From: Ignavibacteria bacterium
Lineage (GTDB): Bacteria > Bacteroidota > Ignavibacteria > Tepidaquicellales > OLB5
DNA length: 49,976 bases
Direction of reading: 5' to 3'
Assembly (NCBI GenBank): GCA_030835025.1
Contig: JAUQWS010000029.1
Span: forward strand, 1 to 49,976
This document shows positions 35,064 through 49,417 of the stretch, one piece after another. Position 1 is the first letter of the stretch. Every line of letters begins with the position of its first letter. The translations under genes and the position numbers were made by a program. Below the pieces are notes generated by a model that was given only the letters and a program-made list of their open reading frames with translations, was not told where the DNA came from and made no database searches.

Positions 35064-35882
35064 ATGAAAAAACTTGATTACATTTCAGCCCTGCTGATAT
35101 TGTTACCGGTTGTGTTTTCATCAAATATGCTCTTTTCGCAGCAGGCGGATAATAACACATATATGGTTGTACTTGGTGTGCCCAAATATGTGATTCAGAT
35201 CAACGGGTATTATGATAAATCAATACTCGAGCTTTCGGGAACGTACAATTCCGATTTTCATTCCGAGCTTGTTACAAGGGGTGAGACCTTTGGAGCGCAT
35301 TACGGATTCGGAGGCGGACTGGTTTCCAAATTGTCACTTGATGAAAGGTCAAATTTCTGGTTCACGCAAAGCCTTTCATATCACAGGGTTCAGAGCTATT
35401 TCCTCGAGGATAAATCAGGGAACATGGATCAGGGAAGGGCAGGATTTAACTGCATTACAGGCGGATTGGGAGTAGAATATAACTTCACACCCAACTATTC
35501 CGTAAAGATATTTGCCGGTGCAGAACTCAACGCAAGTTCAATAAGCGGAAATATGGAGATATGGTTCCCGAGCGGAAGAGACTCGTATATTGAAAACTAC
35601 AAAGTTCTCAGCAGCTTCAGGATGGGTTACGGACTGGTTGGAGGCGGTACATATATGATCGGCAAAAAAGTCGGGATAAATCTTTTCTTCAAGTTAAGCA
35701 ATCTAAATGCATTTGTCAGATATTCCGAAGGCAAAAGTGAAGATAAGGAATTCCGCCTTCGCGACGGTAGCTCCGGTGATGCACTCCTCTTTTCAGGAAA
35801 TAAGAGCTTCTCTTTCTATTCCATCGGAACAGGTGTATCGTTCTATTTCGGAATAAGCGAAAAAAGATACAGGCTTAGATAA
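35064..35882 (+). CDS. Outer-membrane beta-barrel paralog A
   Basis: 272 residues. Signal peptide (to about residue 26, VFSSNMLFSQ). One of five paralogs in the window; shared elements are an N-terminal PKYVIQINGYYDKSILELSG strand, a GFGGGLVSKL strand, TGGLGVEYNFTP, a conserved SFRMGYG, a GINLFFKLS strand, and the end GVSFYFGISEKRYRLR. Pattern and length fit an 8-12-strand barrel. Closest to paralog D (41079-41903), sharing LELSGxYNxD, RFTQSL/WFTQSL, and FGI.EKRY.L. It stands alone on the plus strand on the other side of lon. Function unknown. Confidence 0.8.
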   Translation: MKKLDYISALLILLPVVFSSNMLFSQQADNNTYMVVLGVPKYVIQINGYYDKSILELSGTYNSDFHSELVTRGETFGAHYGFGGGLVSKLSLDERSNFWFTQSLSYHRVQSYFLEDKSGNMDQGRAGFNCITGGLGVEYNFTPNYSVKIFAGAELNASSISGNMEIWFPSGRDSYIENYKVLSSFRMGYGLVGGGTYMIGKKVGINLFFKLSNLNAFVRYSEGKSEDKEFRLRDGSSGDALLFSGNKSFSFYSIGTGVSFYFGISEKRYRLR

Positions 35883-38679: not shown

Positions 38680-38702
38680 AAAAAAAGGCAGCTATTGCCG
38701 CC
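38680..38702 (-). terminator. Intrinsic terminator of the F-C-B barrel unit
   Basis: On the minus strand GGCGGC, AATA loop, GCTGCC, then seven T; 28 bp after the stop of barrel B. It ends the SPOR-barrel-barrel transcript. Confidence 0.75.
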
Positions 38703-38730
38703 TGAACTCTAAGCTGTGGTTGTGCTGTTA

Positions 38731-39591
38731 TTAGGGGAGCTTGTACTTGCGCTCTTTGGTCCCGAAGAAGAAGCTGATACCAACATTGCCGGTAAAATAC
38801 GCGAACTGTTTCCACCCGCCGAACTGTATAGGGTCAACAGTTGAATCATCGTTAAGCGGAACAGATGATGTTGGCGTGAACTCATCGGGGTCTTCTATGG
38901 GAATCTCAGTATGCTTAAGCAGGAGATTCGCGTGGGTGAATCTTAAACCGCAATTAATGCCTACATTCTTTGCAAGCGCGTACTCCATGCCAAGGAAAGC
39001 CTGGTAACCCATACGGAAGCTGCTTGTGATGTTGACATCTACACGGTTGTTATCGGGGTTGCTTAGCTGTGCATCACCCGAAATAAAGCTGAAGAGGGGA
39101 TTTGCCCCAAAATAGTATTTGACTTTATGGGTGGGCGTGAAGTTATACTCTATACCCAGTCCGAAGTTGATATTATTGTACGATACTTTTCCTTCACCGG
39201 TGTTATCGGCCATCAGGTCGCTTTGGAAGCGGTCAAATCCGGTTATGATATCCAGCCAGAAGTTTCCTTTCTTGCTGAGCGGTATCTTGCCGATCATGCT
39301 GAATCCGAAACCGTTCCTGACGCTGAAGTTCTTGCCGGTATTGTAGTCTTCTCTGCTGAATCCGCCGTTATGGCTTGTCAGCTCCAAGGCACCTACGTTA
39401 AGTCCGCCGCTTACGTGCAGTATGAATTTAGGGAGTGTCCTTGTGGTTACTATTTTGATTATCCTGGTCTTGTTGATCTTAACCGTATCATATTTGATGA
39501 TCACATCATTATCCTGCGAGTAAGTAACACTTCCCATAGCTGATGAAAGCAGGATGAATAATGCTGATATTTTCAAAATAGTGCTTTTCAT
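38731..39591 (-). CDS. Outer-membrane beta-barrel paralog B
   Basis: 286 residues. Signal peptide (to about residue 25, SSAMGSVTYSQ). Family elements: PKFILHVSGGLNVGALELTS, GFGFSMIGKIPLSKKGN, GLGIEYNFTPTHKVKYYFG, SSFRMGYQ, VGINCGLRFTHAN, GGWKQF, then VGISFFFGTKERKYKLP at the end. Shares with C and E the GGxK[QN]F motif near the end and a longer N-terminal region before the first strand. Last gene of a unit SPOR F - barrel C - barrel B, 4 bp after C, followed by its own terminator. Function unknown. Confidence 0.8.
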   Translation of the reverse strand: MKSTILKISALFILLSSAMGSVTYSQDNDVIIKYDTVKINKTRIIKIVTTRTLPKFILHVSGGLNVGALELTSHNGGFSREDYNTGKNFSVRNGFGFSMIGKIPLSKKGNFWLDIITGFDRFQSDLMADNTGEGKVSYNNINFGLGIEYNFTPTHKVKYYFGANPLFSFISGDAQLSNPDNNRVDVNITSSFRMGYQAFLGMEYALAKNVGINCGLRFTHANLLLKHTEIPIEDPDEFTPTSSVPLNDDSTVDPIQFGGWKQFAYFTGNVGISFFFGTKERKYKLP

Positions 39592-39595
39592 GTTT

Positions 39596-40426
39596 CTATT
39601 TCTTGTTCTTCATCCCGAAATAAAAATTTATGCCCGTAAAAAATGAACTGTATACAAACTGTTTCCACCCGGCATATGAAATTGGCTGTGAGAGGTCTGT
39701 CTCTTCATCGTTCAGGTATGTTTCACCCGAAACAGGGGACGCCTTTGATTCTTTGCCGATGATATTGGCGTGGGTTAACCTGTATCCAAGGTTGATCCCA
39801 ACCCTGTTGCTGAAGGCGTATTCAAATCCAAGATTAAAACGAACGCCGAATCTTGCAGCGCTTTTTATCTTCACTTCAGTATCGCCGAACTCACTTTTCA
39901 GCAGGGCTTTTCCGCTTATGAAACTTGAGACCAGGTCAAGACCGATATACGGTTTAAAGCGTTTGGTCGGCATAAAATTGTCTTCAATACCGACTGCTGC
40001 ACTGAATACATTGTAAGACACTTCGCCTTCGGGTGATTCACCGATAACAAAACTGCTTTGGAAGCGGTTGAATCCTGAAGTGATGTTAACCCTCATGTTT
40101 CCGGCTTTGTGGAGCGCTATTTTGCCGGTCAGAGTAACACCATAGCCGTATCTTGTGCCGAATGTTCCGCCGCTTTCAAAGTCTGCTCTTCTGAAGTAAG
40201 CGTTTTCATCGCCGGCAAGATCCATGTGGCCGATATCATAGTCAAAACTAAGCTGCAGGGTAAGCCTCGGAGCTTTACCCGGCTTAAGCATGTTAAGTAT
40301 CGTGTTATTGGCAATGAAGTTGTAAGAGGTATCTTTCTTTGTAACCTTTGGATTTACATCCTGTGCAGCAAGTCTGCCCGCAAAAGTAAAGACCAGCACG
40401 ATCAATATTATATATCTGAATTTCAT
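39596..40426 (-). CDS. Outer-membrane beta-barrel paralog C
   Basis: 276 residues. Signal peptide (to about residue 21, FAGRLAAQ). Family elements: PRLTLQLSFDYDIGHMDLAG, GYGVTLTGKIALHKAGN, SSFISGKALL, AARFGVRFN, VGINLGYRLTHANI, AGWKQF and the ending GINFYFGMKNKK. Lies between SPOR F (11 bp upstream) and barrel B (4 bp downstream), so all three are one transcript. The terminal KRYKL found in A, B and D is lost. Function unknown. Confidence 0.8.
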   Translation of the reverse strand: MKFRYIILIVLVFTFAGRLAAQDVNPKVTKKDTSYNFIANNTILNMLKPGKAPRLTLQLSFDYDIGHMDLAGDENAYFRRADFESGGTFGTRYGYGVTLTGKIALHKAGNMRVNITSGFNRFQSSFVIGESPEGEVSYNVFSAAVGIEDNFMPTKRFKPYIGLDLVSSFISGKALLKSEFGDTEVKIKSAARFGVRFNLGFEYAFSNRVGINLGYRLTHANIIGKESKASPVSGETYLNDEETDLSQPISYAGWKQFVYSSFFTGINFYFGMKNKK

Positions 40427-40437
40427 ATGCGTGATTC

Positions 40438-40881
40438 TTACCTTTTCTTAGTTATGATGAATGCATCAAAATAACCTTTGGATTTTACAAACTCGATGAA
40501 CCTCATAGTTTCTGCACGGTTTGTAAATGCACCAATTCTGACTCTGTACATGTTCCCGATGAGGTCATAATATACTTCATCACCAAGCCTTGCTTTTGCA
40601 GCCTGCAAAAACCTGGCAAAGAAATCAGGATTGAGGAATGCGCCGATCTGTACAGAGAAATTATATGATTCTTTAGTGAGGAACTTATCTTCTTTGATCT
40701 TATCTTCTTTAGTATTGTCTTCTTTTATGGCAACGTTCTTTATCGTATCGGCAGTGATGATGGTTTCGACATAATCAATACGGTATTCATTCAGCTCATA
40801 CTCTCCCGAAGAACATCCCCCGAAGTAAAGAGCACTAAGAATGAATATACAAACAGAGTATATTTTCAGTTTTTCAGTCAT
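40438..40881 (-). CDS. SPOR-domain lipoprotein F
   Basis: About 147 residues from the ATG at 40881 (frame is open eight codons more, to 40905; ATG at 40884 is also possible). Lipobox FGGC, lipidated Cys about 23, then CSSGEYELNE, a Lys/Asp/Glu-rich linker with KED repeats, and a C-terminal SPOR domain of about 70 residues (FSVQIGAFLN ... MYRVRIGAFTNRAETMRFIEFVKSKGY). SPOR domains bind peptidoglycan glycan strands stripped of stem peptides, as at division sites. The protein should tether an outer or inner membrane to the wall. First gene of the F-C-B unit. Confidence 0.84.
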   Translation of the reverse strand: MTEKLKIYSVCIFILSALYFGGCSSGEYELNEYRIDYVETIITADTIKNVAIKEDNTKEDKIKEDKFLTKESYNFSVQIGAFLNPDFFARFLQAAKARLGDEVYYDLIGNMYRVRIGAFTNRAETMRFIEFVKSKGYFDAFIITKKR

Positions 40882-41017
40882 CATCCCTAAATTAATATAA
40901 CTCATATTCTTATTTAATGCAAGACTTGTAAAGGGTTAATTTATAAAAAGGCTGTAACTGCTTTAAAATAATATCATTACCGGTCACAGTCAGATTCAGA
41001 AAGTTCAAAATTTAGAC

Positions 41018-41053
41018 AAAAAAGGCTAGCTGAAGTAACCAATTCAGTTAGCC
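41018..41053 (-). terminator. Intrinsic terminator of the G-E-D barrel unit
   Basis: On the minus strand an 11-bp stem (GGCTAACTGAA with TTCAGCTAGCC, one wobble), 8-base loop, then six T; 25 bp after the stop of barrel D. A-rich on the other side too, so it may work in both directions. Confidence 0.75.
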
Positions 41054-41078
41054 GTAAAAAAAAATTTCTGATGTTGTT

Positions 41079-41903
41079 TTAATTGAGTTTATATCTTTTT
41101 TCGATTATTCCGAAATAAAAATTGACTCCGGCCATTATGCTCCAGAATGAGAAGTTTTTATCATTATTTCCGGCGAACCTGAGGTTTGGGTTAGCCTTAT
41201 CCCGAAGCTTGAACTCGGTATCTGTATTTGTGCCTTCAGATTTCTTCATGAGACCGTTTGCATTAAACAGCCTTGCAGCCAGATTGAGGCCGAACCTGTC
41301 GGAAGTGAGTATTTCGGATCCAAACTGGAATGCGTATCCGATCCTGAATGTATTCTTGATGTTAAACTCTTCATTTGTAGAAGGTTCACCGCCGTTATCA
41401 AACCATATCTTGGTGTACCCGTTGATCATACTGGCATTTATCTCTCCGCCAAGGTACATTTTGAAGCGGTGAGCTGGAGTGAAATTGTATTCCAAACCCA
41501 GCCCGCCGGAATAGCAGTTGTAATTAGCTTTTCCGTTATCGGCAACTGTTGTTTTATCGCCAAATGTATATGAAAGGATCCTGTTGTATGTTAATGACTG
41601 TGTAAACCTGATGCTTCCTTTGCTGTTCAAACCGATCTTTGACATTACTGTTCCGCCAAAGCCTTTATCAGCTCCGAAACTCTGGCCGTCGTACACACTT
41701 TCGGACTGGTAGTCATCATTATAAGCGCCGGAAAGCTCCAGCACAGACTGATTGTAATCGAAGTTTACCTGGATCGTGTACTTTGGTGCACTCCTGACTA
41801 TCATGTATCTCTTAATGACCGTTTTTTGTGAAAAGACTTCAGATTGCAGGGCGAATAGGAACACAAGAACACAGAAAAAAAACTTATAGCAGTTTGTTAT
41901 CAT
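41079..41903 (-). CDS. Outer-membrane beta-barrel paralog D
   Basis: 274 residues. Signal peptide (to about residue 25, LQSEVFSQ). Family elements: PKYTIQVNFDYNQSVLELSG, GFGGTVMSKIGL, GGLGLEYNFTPAHRFKMYLGGEINAS, NTFRIGYAF, FGLNLAARL and the end FYFGIIEKRYKLN. Closest to paralog A. Last gene of the SPOR G - barrel E - barrel D unit, 8 bp after E, followed by its own terminator. Function unknown. Confidence 0.8.
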   Translation of the reverse strand: MITNCYKFFFCVLVFLFALQSEVFSQKTVIKRYMIVRSAPKYTIQVNFDYNQSVLELSGAYNDDYQSESVYDGQSFGADKGFGGTVMSKIGLNSKGSIRFTQSLTYNRILSYTFGDKTTVADNGKANYNCYSGGLGLEYNFTPAHRFKMYLGGEINASMINGYTKIWFDNGGEPSTNEEFNIKNTFRIGYAFQFGSEILTSDRFGLNLAARLFNANGLMKKSEGTNTDTEFKLRDKANPNLRFAGNNDKNFSFWSIMAGVNFYFGIIEKRYKLN

Positions 41904-41911
41904 AGGTCAGA

Positions 41912-42769
41912 TTATTTGTTGAACTGATAGACAATATCTTTGACACCAAAATAGTAGTTCACTCCAAGGAAAAATGAAGTGAATATGAAGTTCTTAAAGC
42001 CGCCGAACTCGACTATCAGGTAATCGTTCTTTTTATCTCTCAGCGGTACTTCGTTAGGATCACTGCTATCTTTTGTTTGTTTAAGTACCTGGTTAGAATT
42101 GGTCAGCTTCAATCCGCCGTTGATCCCAAGTTTTTTTGTAAACATGTATTCCAGTCCGCTGTAAACCATGTACCCTATCCTGAAAGAAGGCTTGAACTTA
42201 ACATGCCTTGTACTGCCTGTCGAAAGGGTGGTCATTTCAGCTTCACCCTTTATGATATTTGCCTGGATCTCTGCGGCAATAAAAGGCTTAAGCCTGAAAC
42301 TGGGATTGAACGAGTTTTCGATGCCTGCTCCGAATGCAAATACTTCGAACTTAACATTGCCAAAGGGAGAGTCATCTGCGAGGAAATTGCTGCTGAATGT
42401 GTTATAGTTAACAGAAGCATTCAGCCTGATATTGCCTTCTCTGTGAAGCGGCACTTTTCCTATCAGCATAAAACCGTATCCGTTTTTCACTCCGAAATTC
42501 AGCCCGTCTGAAAATTGAAGTGAATCAAATACGTTCTGAAAATTGGAGGAAAGCTCAGCCATTCCCAAATTCAGTGAGCCGGAAAACTGAAGCGTGAATC
42601 TTGGTGGAGTCTGAATTCTGTAAAAGTTCTTTAGCTTAGCGCCGGTTGATTTATACTTGGTTGTATCCTTGTAATCGCCTTTTTCTATGTTGTAAGAGCC
42701 GGAGCCGCAGCCAAACAAAAAGGGAACCAGAGCAACCATCAATGCAGCAGTAAAATGAGATAATTTCAT
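41912..42769 (-). CDS. Outer-membrane beta-barrel paralog E with a lipobox
   Basis: 285 residues. Family elements: PRFTLQFSGSLNLGMAELSS, GYGFMLIGKVPLHREGN, FGAGIENSFNPSFRLKPFI, PSFRIGYMVYSGLEYMF, LGINGGLKLTNSN, GGFKNF, LGVNYYFGVKD. Unlike the other four it has a lipoprotein signal (LFGC, Cys21), and the residues after the Cys (CGSGSYNIEK) resemble those of the SPOR lipoproteins F and H. A barrel with a lipidated N-terminus is unusual. Middle gene of the G-E-D unit; 124 bp lie between SPOR G and this gene. Function unknown. Confidence 0.8.
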   Translation of the reverse strand: MKLSHFTAALMVALVPFLFGCGSGSYNIEKGDYKDTTKYKSTGAKLKNFYRIQTPPRFTLQFSGSLNLGMAELSSNFQNVFDSLQFSDGLNFGVKNGYGFMLIGKVPLHREGNIRLNASVNYNTFSSNFLADDSPFGNVKFEVFAFGAGIENSFNPSFRLKPFIAAEIQANIIKGEAEMTTLSTGSTRHVKFKPSFRIGYMVYSGLEYMFTKKLGINGGLKLTNSNQVLKQTKDSSDPNEVPLRDKKNDYLIVEFGGFKNFIFTSFFLGVNYYFGVKDIVYQFNK

Positions 42770-42893
42770 AGGACGTCTGTACCCCGCTAAAATTAAATAG
42801 GTAAAAAAGATCTCAATACAAGATCAATTGTACCGGACAATTTCCGTAAATTATCCAAAAAAAACAATAAATTCAAGTAATTTTACTTACTTG

Positions 42894-43391
42894 TCATTTA
42901 GCGGACTGCAATTCGAGTATGAAAGTATCGTTGTATCCTAATGAGTAGATTTCTCTTAATCTGTTACCTGCCAGATCAAGTGAGCTGAAGCTGCCGATGA
43001 GAATTTTGTACAGATTATCCTGGTTTTTGCAGTATATGCCGTAGCGTTCTACCAGGCTTTTATTTGTTTCAATAAACTGCTTTGCATTTTCTTCATCATT
43101 AAAAGCAGCTATCTGAACTGCAAACATCTTTTTATTGCTAAGTGAATTTGAGAATTTTGTTTCTTCCGTGTTTCTCTTTTCAGGAAAACTGCTGTCTGAG
43201 TTTTCCGTGATCTTATCACCTAACTTTACGTCGTCCTGTATTGCCTGCCCGCCCGGGAGCTTGCTATCCAGGTCTTCCTGTACTAACCCTTCATCATCAA
43301 CGGTCACATCAACTTCGCTGGAACCGCATCCAATGAGGATTCCGGCAAAGAGTAAGACAAGTGAAAAGTATTTTAAGAAGCTTAAGTTCAT
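42894..43391 (-). CDS. SPOR-domain lipoprotein G
   Basis: 165 residues from the ATG at 43391 (MNLSFLKYF); the frame is open to 43433 but that would put 14 polar residues before the signal peptide. Lipobox LIGC, Cys22. A polar acidic linker follows, then a SPOR domain in the last 75 residues (MFAVQIAAFNDEENAKQFIE ... NLYKILIGSFSSLDLAGNRLREI). Should bind denuded peptidoglycan. Heads the G-E-D unit with barrels E and D. Confidence 0.83.
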   Translation of the reverse strand: MNLSFLKYFSLVLLFAGILIGCGSSEVDVTVDDEGLVQEDLDSKLPGGQAIQDDVKLGDKITENSDSSFPEKRNTEETKFSNSLSNKKMFAVQIAAFNDEENAKQFIETNKSLVERYGIYCKNQDNLYKILIGSFSSLDLAGNRLREIYSLGYNDTFILELQSAK

Positions 43392-43433
43392 TGAGCGCTC
43401 TCTGGTTATATTTTTGAAAATATTTGTAGTCAA

Positions 43434-43662
43434 TTTAACTACAAAATAGCGTGTACTGCCTGAATCATCAATACCGTGTAATTAGTAGTTTATAATCTTT
43501 TAAAAAATATAACGAAAGTAGCTAGAGAAAAGTTGATTTAAATTAAGGTTTTGAGGTTTTTGGGTGAAAAATATTTTTCATACCTCAATTTATCTTTAAA
43601 ATTATATAAAAACAATAGTTTAAAACTGAAGATAAGCGATATGAGGGGAATCCAGATATGTG
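43434..43662. other. Intergenic region between SPOR genes H and G
   Basis: 229 bp, AT-rich, no convincing gene. It contains the perfect 16-bp palindrome TGAAAAATATTTTTCA (43565-43580) about 130-175 bp before SPOR G. No TTG-N20-TAnnTTTG was found for SPOR G. Confidence 0.5.
43565..43580. promoter_or_regulatory. Perfect 16-bp palindrome upstream of SPOR G
   Basis: TGAAAAATATTTTTCA reads the same on both strands. In AT-rich DNA such dyads arise by chance, but the position between two SPOR genes fits an operator. Confidence 0.3.
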
Positions 43663-44154
43663 CTATTCCGCTTTGACTTTAGTTACTTCAACAACAAATG
43701 AATCTCCAAATCGTAAAGCCCAAATCGTTTTGAGGTATTCAATTGCTTCATTCTTGTCGGTGAATTCTCTGCTTAATCTCACTTTATAGAGCCCGTCCAC
43801 AAGCTTATAGGTAATGTTAGGATCGGCAATTCTGGCGGAAGCCTTCCTGATAAGCTTCTCAGCGGAAGATTCGTTTATGTAAGCTCCAATCTGTACAACG
43901 TATGTGCGCGAAATAACTTGTTTCTCTGTGTATTTGGATTCAACAGATCTTGTTTCTTCAACAACGCTTTTATCGCCTATACTTTCGTTCTTTGAGTCTG
44001 TATCGGTTTTGATATCACTTTCGGGCTGCTTTACTTCTTCTTTAAACTCAACCGGTTCTTCAACTTCAATTATCTCGTATACTGCGGAATTACAGCCGGC
44101 AAAAGCCAGAAAAGCTGCAAAAACCATCAATGTTACTATATTTGTGAATTTCAT
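43663..44154 (-). CDS. SPOR-domain lipoprotein H
   Basis: 163 residues. Lipobox FAGC, lipidated Cys21; CNSAVYEIIE follows, then a Glu/Lys/Asp-rich linker of about 55 residues, and a SPOR domain (about 84-160: TYVVQIGAYINESSAEKLIRKA ... LYKVRLSREFTDKNEAIEYLKTI). Third SPOR lipoprotein of the cluster, alone with its own promoter (44255-44225) and not followed directly by a barrel; G comes next after 230 bp. Confidence 0.85.
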   Translation of the reverse strand: MKFTNIVTLMVFAAFLAFAGCNSAVYEIIEVEEPVEFKEEVKQPESDIKTDTDSKNESIGDKSVVEETRSVESKYTEKQVISRTYVVQIGAYINESSAEKLIRKASARIADPNITYKLVDGLYKVRLSREFTDKNEAIEYLKTIWALRFGDSFVVEVTKVKAE

Positions 44155-49048: not shown

Positions 49049-49417
49049 ATGACGAAAGTTTACGTAGCCATATTTAGTCTATTCTTTGTCTTCGGTACTT
49101 TAAGGGTAAGCGCCGATAATAAAGAACAGCTTGTGGATTTTAAGGGTAATCCCGATAAGTTCGAACTCAATCAGAATTATCCCAATCCATTCAACCCATC
49201 TACACAGCTTTCGTATGTGCTGAAAGTCGACGGCGAAGTTAAATTAACAGTGTTTAACGTAGTCGGACAGTCAGTTCGCCTGCTTGTGGACGGCTACCAG
49301 ACAGCCGGTTACTATGAAGTTATGTTTGATGCAAACGAACTTCCTGCAGGAATTTACCTCTATAAGCTCCAGGTCGGCAACTATTCCTCTGTTAAGAGGA
49401 TGACGCTTGTCAAATAG
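49049..49417 (+). CDS. Mini secreted protein made mainly of a type IX sorting domain
   Basis: 122 residues. Signal peptide (MTKVYVAIFSLFFVFGTLRVSA), about 15 residues of linker, then a complete C-terminal sorting domain: LNQNYPNPFNPSTQLSYVL, VKLTVFNVVGQSV, AGYYEVMFDANELPAGIYLYKL and the terminal KRMTLVK. There is no cargo domain between signal and sorting domain, and the own strong promoter argues that it is not a gene remnant. It may be a competitor, regulator or attachment seed of the secretion system, or the tail of a lost gene. Function unknown. Confidence 0.85.
   Translation: MTKVYVAIFSLFFVFGTLRVSADNKEQLVDFKGNPDKFELNQNYPNPFNPSTQLSYVLKVDGEVKLTVFNVVGQSVRLLVDGYQTAGYYEVMFDANELPAGIYLYKLQVGNYSSVKRMTLVK

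Follow-up and report, generated by a model that had tools for sequence, protein, structure and literature searches.

A family-specific block of SPOR lipoprotein and outer-membrane barrel genes in uncultured Ignavibacteria, a candidate outer membrane-cell wall tether

In Escherichia coli the outer membrane is linked to the cell wall by Lpp, Pal and OmpA, and in the Terrabacteria by OmpM; Pal is confined to the Gracilicutes and the distribution of OmpA is patchy (PMC10628300). None of these four systems has SPOR lipoproteins together with separate barrels. SPOR domains of known proteins bind glycan free of stem peptides, which is the type produced at the division septum. Here we describe a block of genes in an uncultured member of the Ignavibacteria that brings these elements together. 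The window, that is the whole stretch of DNA analysed, comprises positions 1 to 49,976 of contig JAUQWS010000029.1 (49,976 nucleotides), and the block encodes three predicted SPOR lipoproteins and four homologous outer-membrane barrels of predicted eight-stranded fold, all on a single strand. The block is real, conserved and specific to one family.

Read 5' to 3' on the minus strand, the order is SPOR H, SPOR F, barrel C, barrel B, a terminator, SPOR G, barrel E, barrel D and a second terminator; the genes, the strand and the separate terminators given by an original prediction, made from the letters of the window, were all confirmed. The first unit has as its core SPOR gene SPOR H (43663–44154), which carries the lipobox FAGC and a C-terminal SPOR domain. 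SPOR F (42894–43433) is an optional additional SPOR lipoprotein, for which an ATG at 43391 is a likelier start than the TTG at the called 5' end. Barrel C (41912–42769) comes next, barrel B (41079–41903) begins 8 bp past it, and a predicted intrinsic terminator follows B (41024–41053; a stem of -11.2 kcal/mol, then TTTTTTGT). The second unit is opened by SPOR G (40438–40905), also a predicted lipoprotein with a C-terminal SPOR domain, whose orthologues start about 8 codons downstream of the called start. Barrel E (39596–40426) begins 11 bp past SPOR G and barrel D (38731–39591) 4 bp past barrel E, and the predicted intrinsic terminator after D lies at 38686–38703.

We read the block in 15 genomes of the family, which represent three genera of uncultured Ignavibacteria. 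The order H-(F)-C-B-terminator-G-E-D is maintained in all 15 as far as the contigs are readable, and a chance neighbourhood of SPOR and barrel genes is therefore rejected; the claims that the SPOR-barrel-barrel order is not a random pairing and that SPOR and barrel genes remain adjacent in relatives hold throughout the readable loci of the family. Wherever the contigs extend, C adjoins B and E adjoins D, SPOR G precedes E in every family locus read, and SPOR H adjoins C or F in 12 of the 15 genomes. One genome (G006) shows G-E-D only, another (G005) begins at C, and in a third (G003) the block is spread over two contigs. In G002 (locus L065) H is not beside C and a small SPOR protein sits on another contig, this copy being the single exception among the family's small SPOR lipoproteins, all others of which lie inside the block. 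SPOR F is present in three genomes (the window's, L060 and L066), absent from ten and unreadable in two. The first unit had been described as SPOR F followed by C and B; the barrel pair C-B stands, and the core SPOR gene is H, with F optional.

The gap between C and B is 6–12 bp in the family and that between G and E 0–15 bp, with one overlap, while 168–207 bp separate B from G, a stretch in which 11 of 13 loci have a terminator-like stem with an energy of -11 kcal/mol or better. A similar stem follows D in most family loci. Conservation within the window's genus extends to the flanking genes (a PfkB-type kinase, mtnA, recO, htrA and lon, named by sequence), which makes synteny there weaker evidence. 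L065 comes from another genus and has different genes upstream, and its order is still C-B-G-E-D.

By profile, F, G and H are members of the SPOR family, scoring 35.5, 35.9 and 31.3 bits respectively against PF05036 (cut-off 21 bits). In an alignment of 30 SPOR sequences Gln88 and Ala91 are invariant, and Lys124 and Arg126 are nearly so. The residues of RlpA that touch denuded glycan are Q270, A273 and R309/R311 (PMC6895207), and their counterparts in the block, a Gln, an Ala and basic residues, are among the best-conserved SPOR positions. The glycan-contact residues are retained in the block SPOR proteins, and glycan binding itself is predicted. None of the three belongs to RlpA, since they lack its DPBB lytic transglycosylase domain and match the SPOR end of RlpA models only, far below the cut-off; membership of FtsN was rejected as well, the other FtsN domains being missing. 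The window's genome encodes five SPOR proteins, three of them in the block. Of the remaining two, with domains read by eye, one is RlpA-like (L020) and the other (L021) has about 630 amino acids and a central membrane segment.

The barrels A to E are mutually homologous, with 30–47% identity and BLASTP E values of 1e-26 to 1e-77. Barrel A (35064–35882, plus strand) lies outside the block, on the other side of lon, and is the nearest paralogue of B, with 47% identity. Against PF13505 (OMP_b-brl; cut-off 28.7 bits), E scores 36.4 bits, D just misses the cut-off at 27.4 bits, B falls far below it at 13 bits, and A and C show no match. C and D have marginal profile matches to opacity-porin or OMP_b-brl, A matches no Pfam model, and D also weakly matches, at the cut-off, the profile of the lipid A deacylase barrel PagL. 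The barrels thus find only generic profiles and OmpA/OmpX-type folds, and no named family of unrelated role. AlphaFold2 models, a check suggested by the original prediction, give eight long strands each for C (predicted local distance difference test score 85.9) and B (88.6), with a long final loop that, judging from the topology, should face the outer side; this loop is long and conserved in C. The nearest folds in the PDB are NspA, OmpA, Ail, OmpX and OmpW, at about 10–17% identity, and the nearest proteins by sequence profile are Opa60 and NspA. A Pfam search of A to E found no OmpA-like wall-binding domain, and the modelled C and B chains stop right past the last strand.

The set of strand motifs said to be common to all the barrels is mostly correct. 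Barrel E departs from it with ARFGV in place of FR[IM]GY and with the start PRL, D has FFG as its C-terminal motif, and the GK of the other barrels is SK in A and B. With barrel B as query, 12 related barrels were found in the window's genome, 5 of them in the window. Elsewhere in the same genome (L016, contig C23, 5183–10208) five more divergent barrels stand in tandem with no SPOR gene, and similar arrays recur in the family. One relative has two A-type barrels in tandem (L068, 4651–6534), where the window has one A gene. A further clade of barrels near C and E, which we call X, is solitary in five relatives (L071–L075), with no member seen in the window's genome.

A feature overlooked in the first reading of the sequence is the lipoprotein signal of barrel C. 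Its signal peptide ends in the lipobox LFGC, of which Gly20-Cys21 is invariant in 14 of 14 orthologues, suggesting that barrel C is itself probably lipidated and is a candidate lipoprotein; the next 30 residues or so form a linker that AlphaFold2 models with low confidence. A Tyr at position +5 from the lipid Cys is common to C, H and G and occurs in 4 of 84 other lipobox open reading frames at the loci at hand, in a count for which some H and G members overlooked by a simple lipobox pattern were read from the alignment. To our knowledge lipidated single-chain outer-membrane barrels are rare, and barrel C, if lipidated, would be an unusual case.

Barrels B, C, D and E each form one fully supported clade in the tree, which argues that all the block barrels were present in the family's ancestor. 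Together with A and X they form a single clade against the barrels of the sister family and others (100/98.8), while the SPOR proteins H, F and G are likewise a clade of their own against those of the sister family (100/98), suggesting that both kinds of protein multiplied on the family's stem. In the SPOR tree F is the sister clade of H, and H/F is the sister group of G; barrel C groups with E, and X, at 94/85. This is the pattern predicted by duplication of a unit, and to that extent the duplicated module of the original prediction fits. B does not group with D (A and B form a clade with support of 100/99), although constraining B, D and A together was not rejected (approximately unbiased test, p 0.457 and 0.148 on two trees). 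The trees are compatible with a duplication of the whole unit, which is a possible history of the block.

In a scan of named genomes the relatives carrying the block fell among uncultured Ignavibacteria, one of them being 'Chlorobi bacterium OLB5'. The block was not found in 29 genomes of the sister family, which contain more distant barrels only, with no SPOR gene near any of these, and a profile of barrel C gave two matches among 296 genomes of the phylum, both in the window's genus. SPOR lipoproteins of the sister family, one or two in number and 130–157 amino acids long, are encoded beside folD/prmA-like genes, in some cases as a tandem pair (L093–L098), and no block-type barrel lies beside these small SPOR genes in the 11 loci read. 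At the level of the class a block-type barrel adjoined a small SPOR gene in 0 of 20 loci, and FadL-like proteins were present in some. In another family of the class (L166, L167, L173 and L176) a FadL-like outer-membrane protein is encoded near a SPOR lipoprotein, and in three of the four loci another lipoprotein gene separates the two; SPOR is here linked to a barrel of a different type. None of 44 genomes of the order has Pal or TolB above either curated cut-off, by models that are tuned to Proteobacteria and that E. coli and Caulobacter pass and Bacteroides fails. The OmpA-domain proteins in the order's genomes are mostly about 490–640 amino acids long.

A possible role for the block, to which we give a probability of about one half, is that of a split, OmpA-like tether between outer membrane and wall, placed by its SPOR domains at denuded, septal glycan; a tie between membrane and wall had also been suggested by the original prediction. 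The lipid of H and G, and of F where present, would hold the outer membrane while the SPOR domain would reach the peptidoglycan. Barrels C, B, E and D would lie in the same outer membrane, C probably with a lipid of its own, and each SPOR lipoprotein may associate with the barrel pair encoded behind it. A SPOR protein and a barrel would in this way amount to an OmpA divided into separate chains, giving a non-covalent tether that would be enriched where amidases denude the wall. The conserved order, the invariant lipobox of C, the kept glycan contacts and the OmpA-type folds speak for such a tether, as do the Tyr shared at Cys+5, the confinement of the family's small SPOR lipoproteins to the block (save the G002 copy), the family-specific clades and the lack of Pal and TolB above cut-off in the order.

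Several points weigh on the other side. We infer, from the genes, the attachment of lipid, the contact between SPOR proteins and barrels, their place at the septum and their role as a tether. Small SPOR lipoproteins are retained in the sister family with no such barrels, so the function of the SPOR proteins does not depend on these. With the predicted terminators, the two halves of the block would be transcribed separately. Tethering could fall to the large OmpA-domain proteins that are also encoded, and eight-stranded barrels serve many other purposes.

The best of the alternatives, which we consider less likely, is that the SPOR lipoproteins alone are the septal linkers of outer membrane and wall, as is presumably the case in the sister family, and that the barrels are unremarkable surface proteins (akin to adhesins, porins or stress proteins) that are co-transcribed for dosage or timing and make no contact with them. 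The folD/prmA loci of the sister family, the occurrence of barrels A and X outside the block without SPOR genes, and the presence of adhesins (Ail, Opa) among the nearest folds would all suit this explanation. Against it stand the SPOR-barrel-barrel order, maintained twice over across three genera, the Cys+5 Tyr that C, H and G have in common, and the rise in number of both kinds of protein on a single stem.

With Pal and TolB below cut-off and the OmpA-domain proteins mostly large, it is reasonable to give the small SPOR lipoproteins a role like that of Pal, and this holds equally for the sister family. That they form with a lipidated barrel a mixed complex, an undescribed clade-specific septal attachment machine replacing Pal without canonical Tol-Pal, seems to us unlikely. 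It is more improbable still that the module steers septal assembly of the outer membrane or surface, with the SPOR proteins positioning effector barrels that transport lipids or wall fragments or modify them as enzymes, and the tether as a side effect. The PagL match of barrel D hints at such an activity, but D matches the generic OMP_b-brl and Opacity profiles equally well or better. The conserved long last loop of C would also suit an effector. Against this reading, narrow eight-stranded barrels usually do not transport.

An accessory part of type IX secretion, made of PorP/SprF-like barrels and a wall-binding partner such as PorE, can be set aside despite a type IX-like sorting domain on one protein of the window, since no barrel matches PorP_SprF in Pfam (E<=1), eight strands are fewer than those of PorP-type barrels, and the block is confined to one family of a phylum in which type IX secretion is widespread. 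That protein (49049–49417, plus strand) is short, secreted and nearly all sorting domain (PNPFNPST ... GIYLYKLQVGNYSSVKRMTLVK), and the organism therefore probably has type IX secretion.

We found no description of a SPOR-barrel system of this kind in the open-access literature, a coverage outside which most subscription journals lie, and the build matches no named system that we found, as the original prediction had supposed. The split tether that we favour can be compared with OmpA, an eight-stranded barrel of the same fold class with the non-covalent joining of outer membrane and wall that we propose for the block; unlike OmpA, the block has its wall binder, a SPOR domain, on a separate lipoprotein, and its barrels have no periplasmic domain. 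Pal of the Tol-Pal system is likewise a small lipid-anchored wall-binding protein, as predicted for the SPOR proteins of the block, and these too may be septal, but they have SPOR rather than OmpA domains and are linked to barrels, with no TolB above cut-off. RlpA, FtsN, DamX and DedD of E. coli and Pseudomonas share the SPOR domain with kept glycan contacts, and RlpA is also an outer-membrane lipoprotein, whereas the block SPOR proteins have neither the DPBB lytic domain of RlpA nor a transmembrane anchor of the FtsN type and are followed by barrel genes. OmpM of the Terrabacteria is an outer-membrane barrel tied to the wall, but its single chain combines a large porin barrel with an SLH domain, and it is absent from the Gracilicutes (PMC10628300). 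The OMP_b-brl and opacity-porin barrels (PF13505, PF02462; NspA, OmpX, Ail, OmpW) resemble the block barrels in fold and in weak profile matches, while the block barrels form a clade of their own in one Ignavibacteria family and C has a lipobox. The parts of the block are thus known and their combination is new, and if the function proposed here is true, a family-restricted block with wall binder and barrel on separate chains would represent a new solution to holding and constricting the outer membrane in diderms without canonical Tol-Pal.

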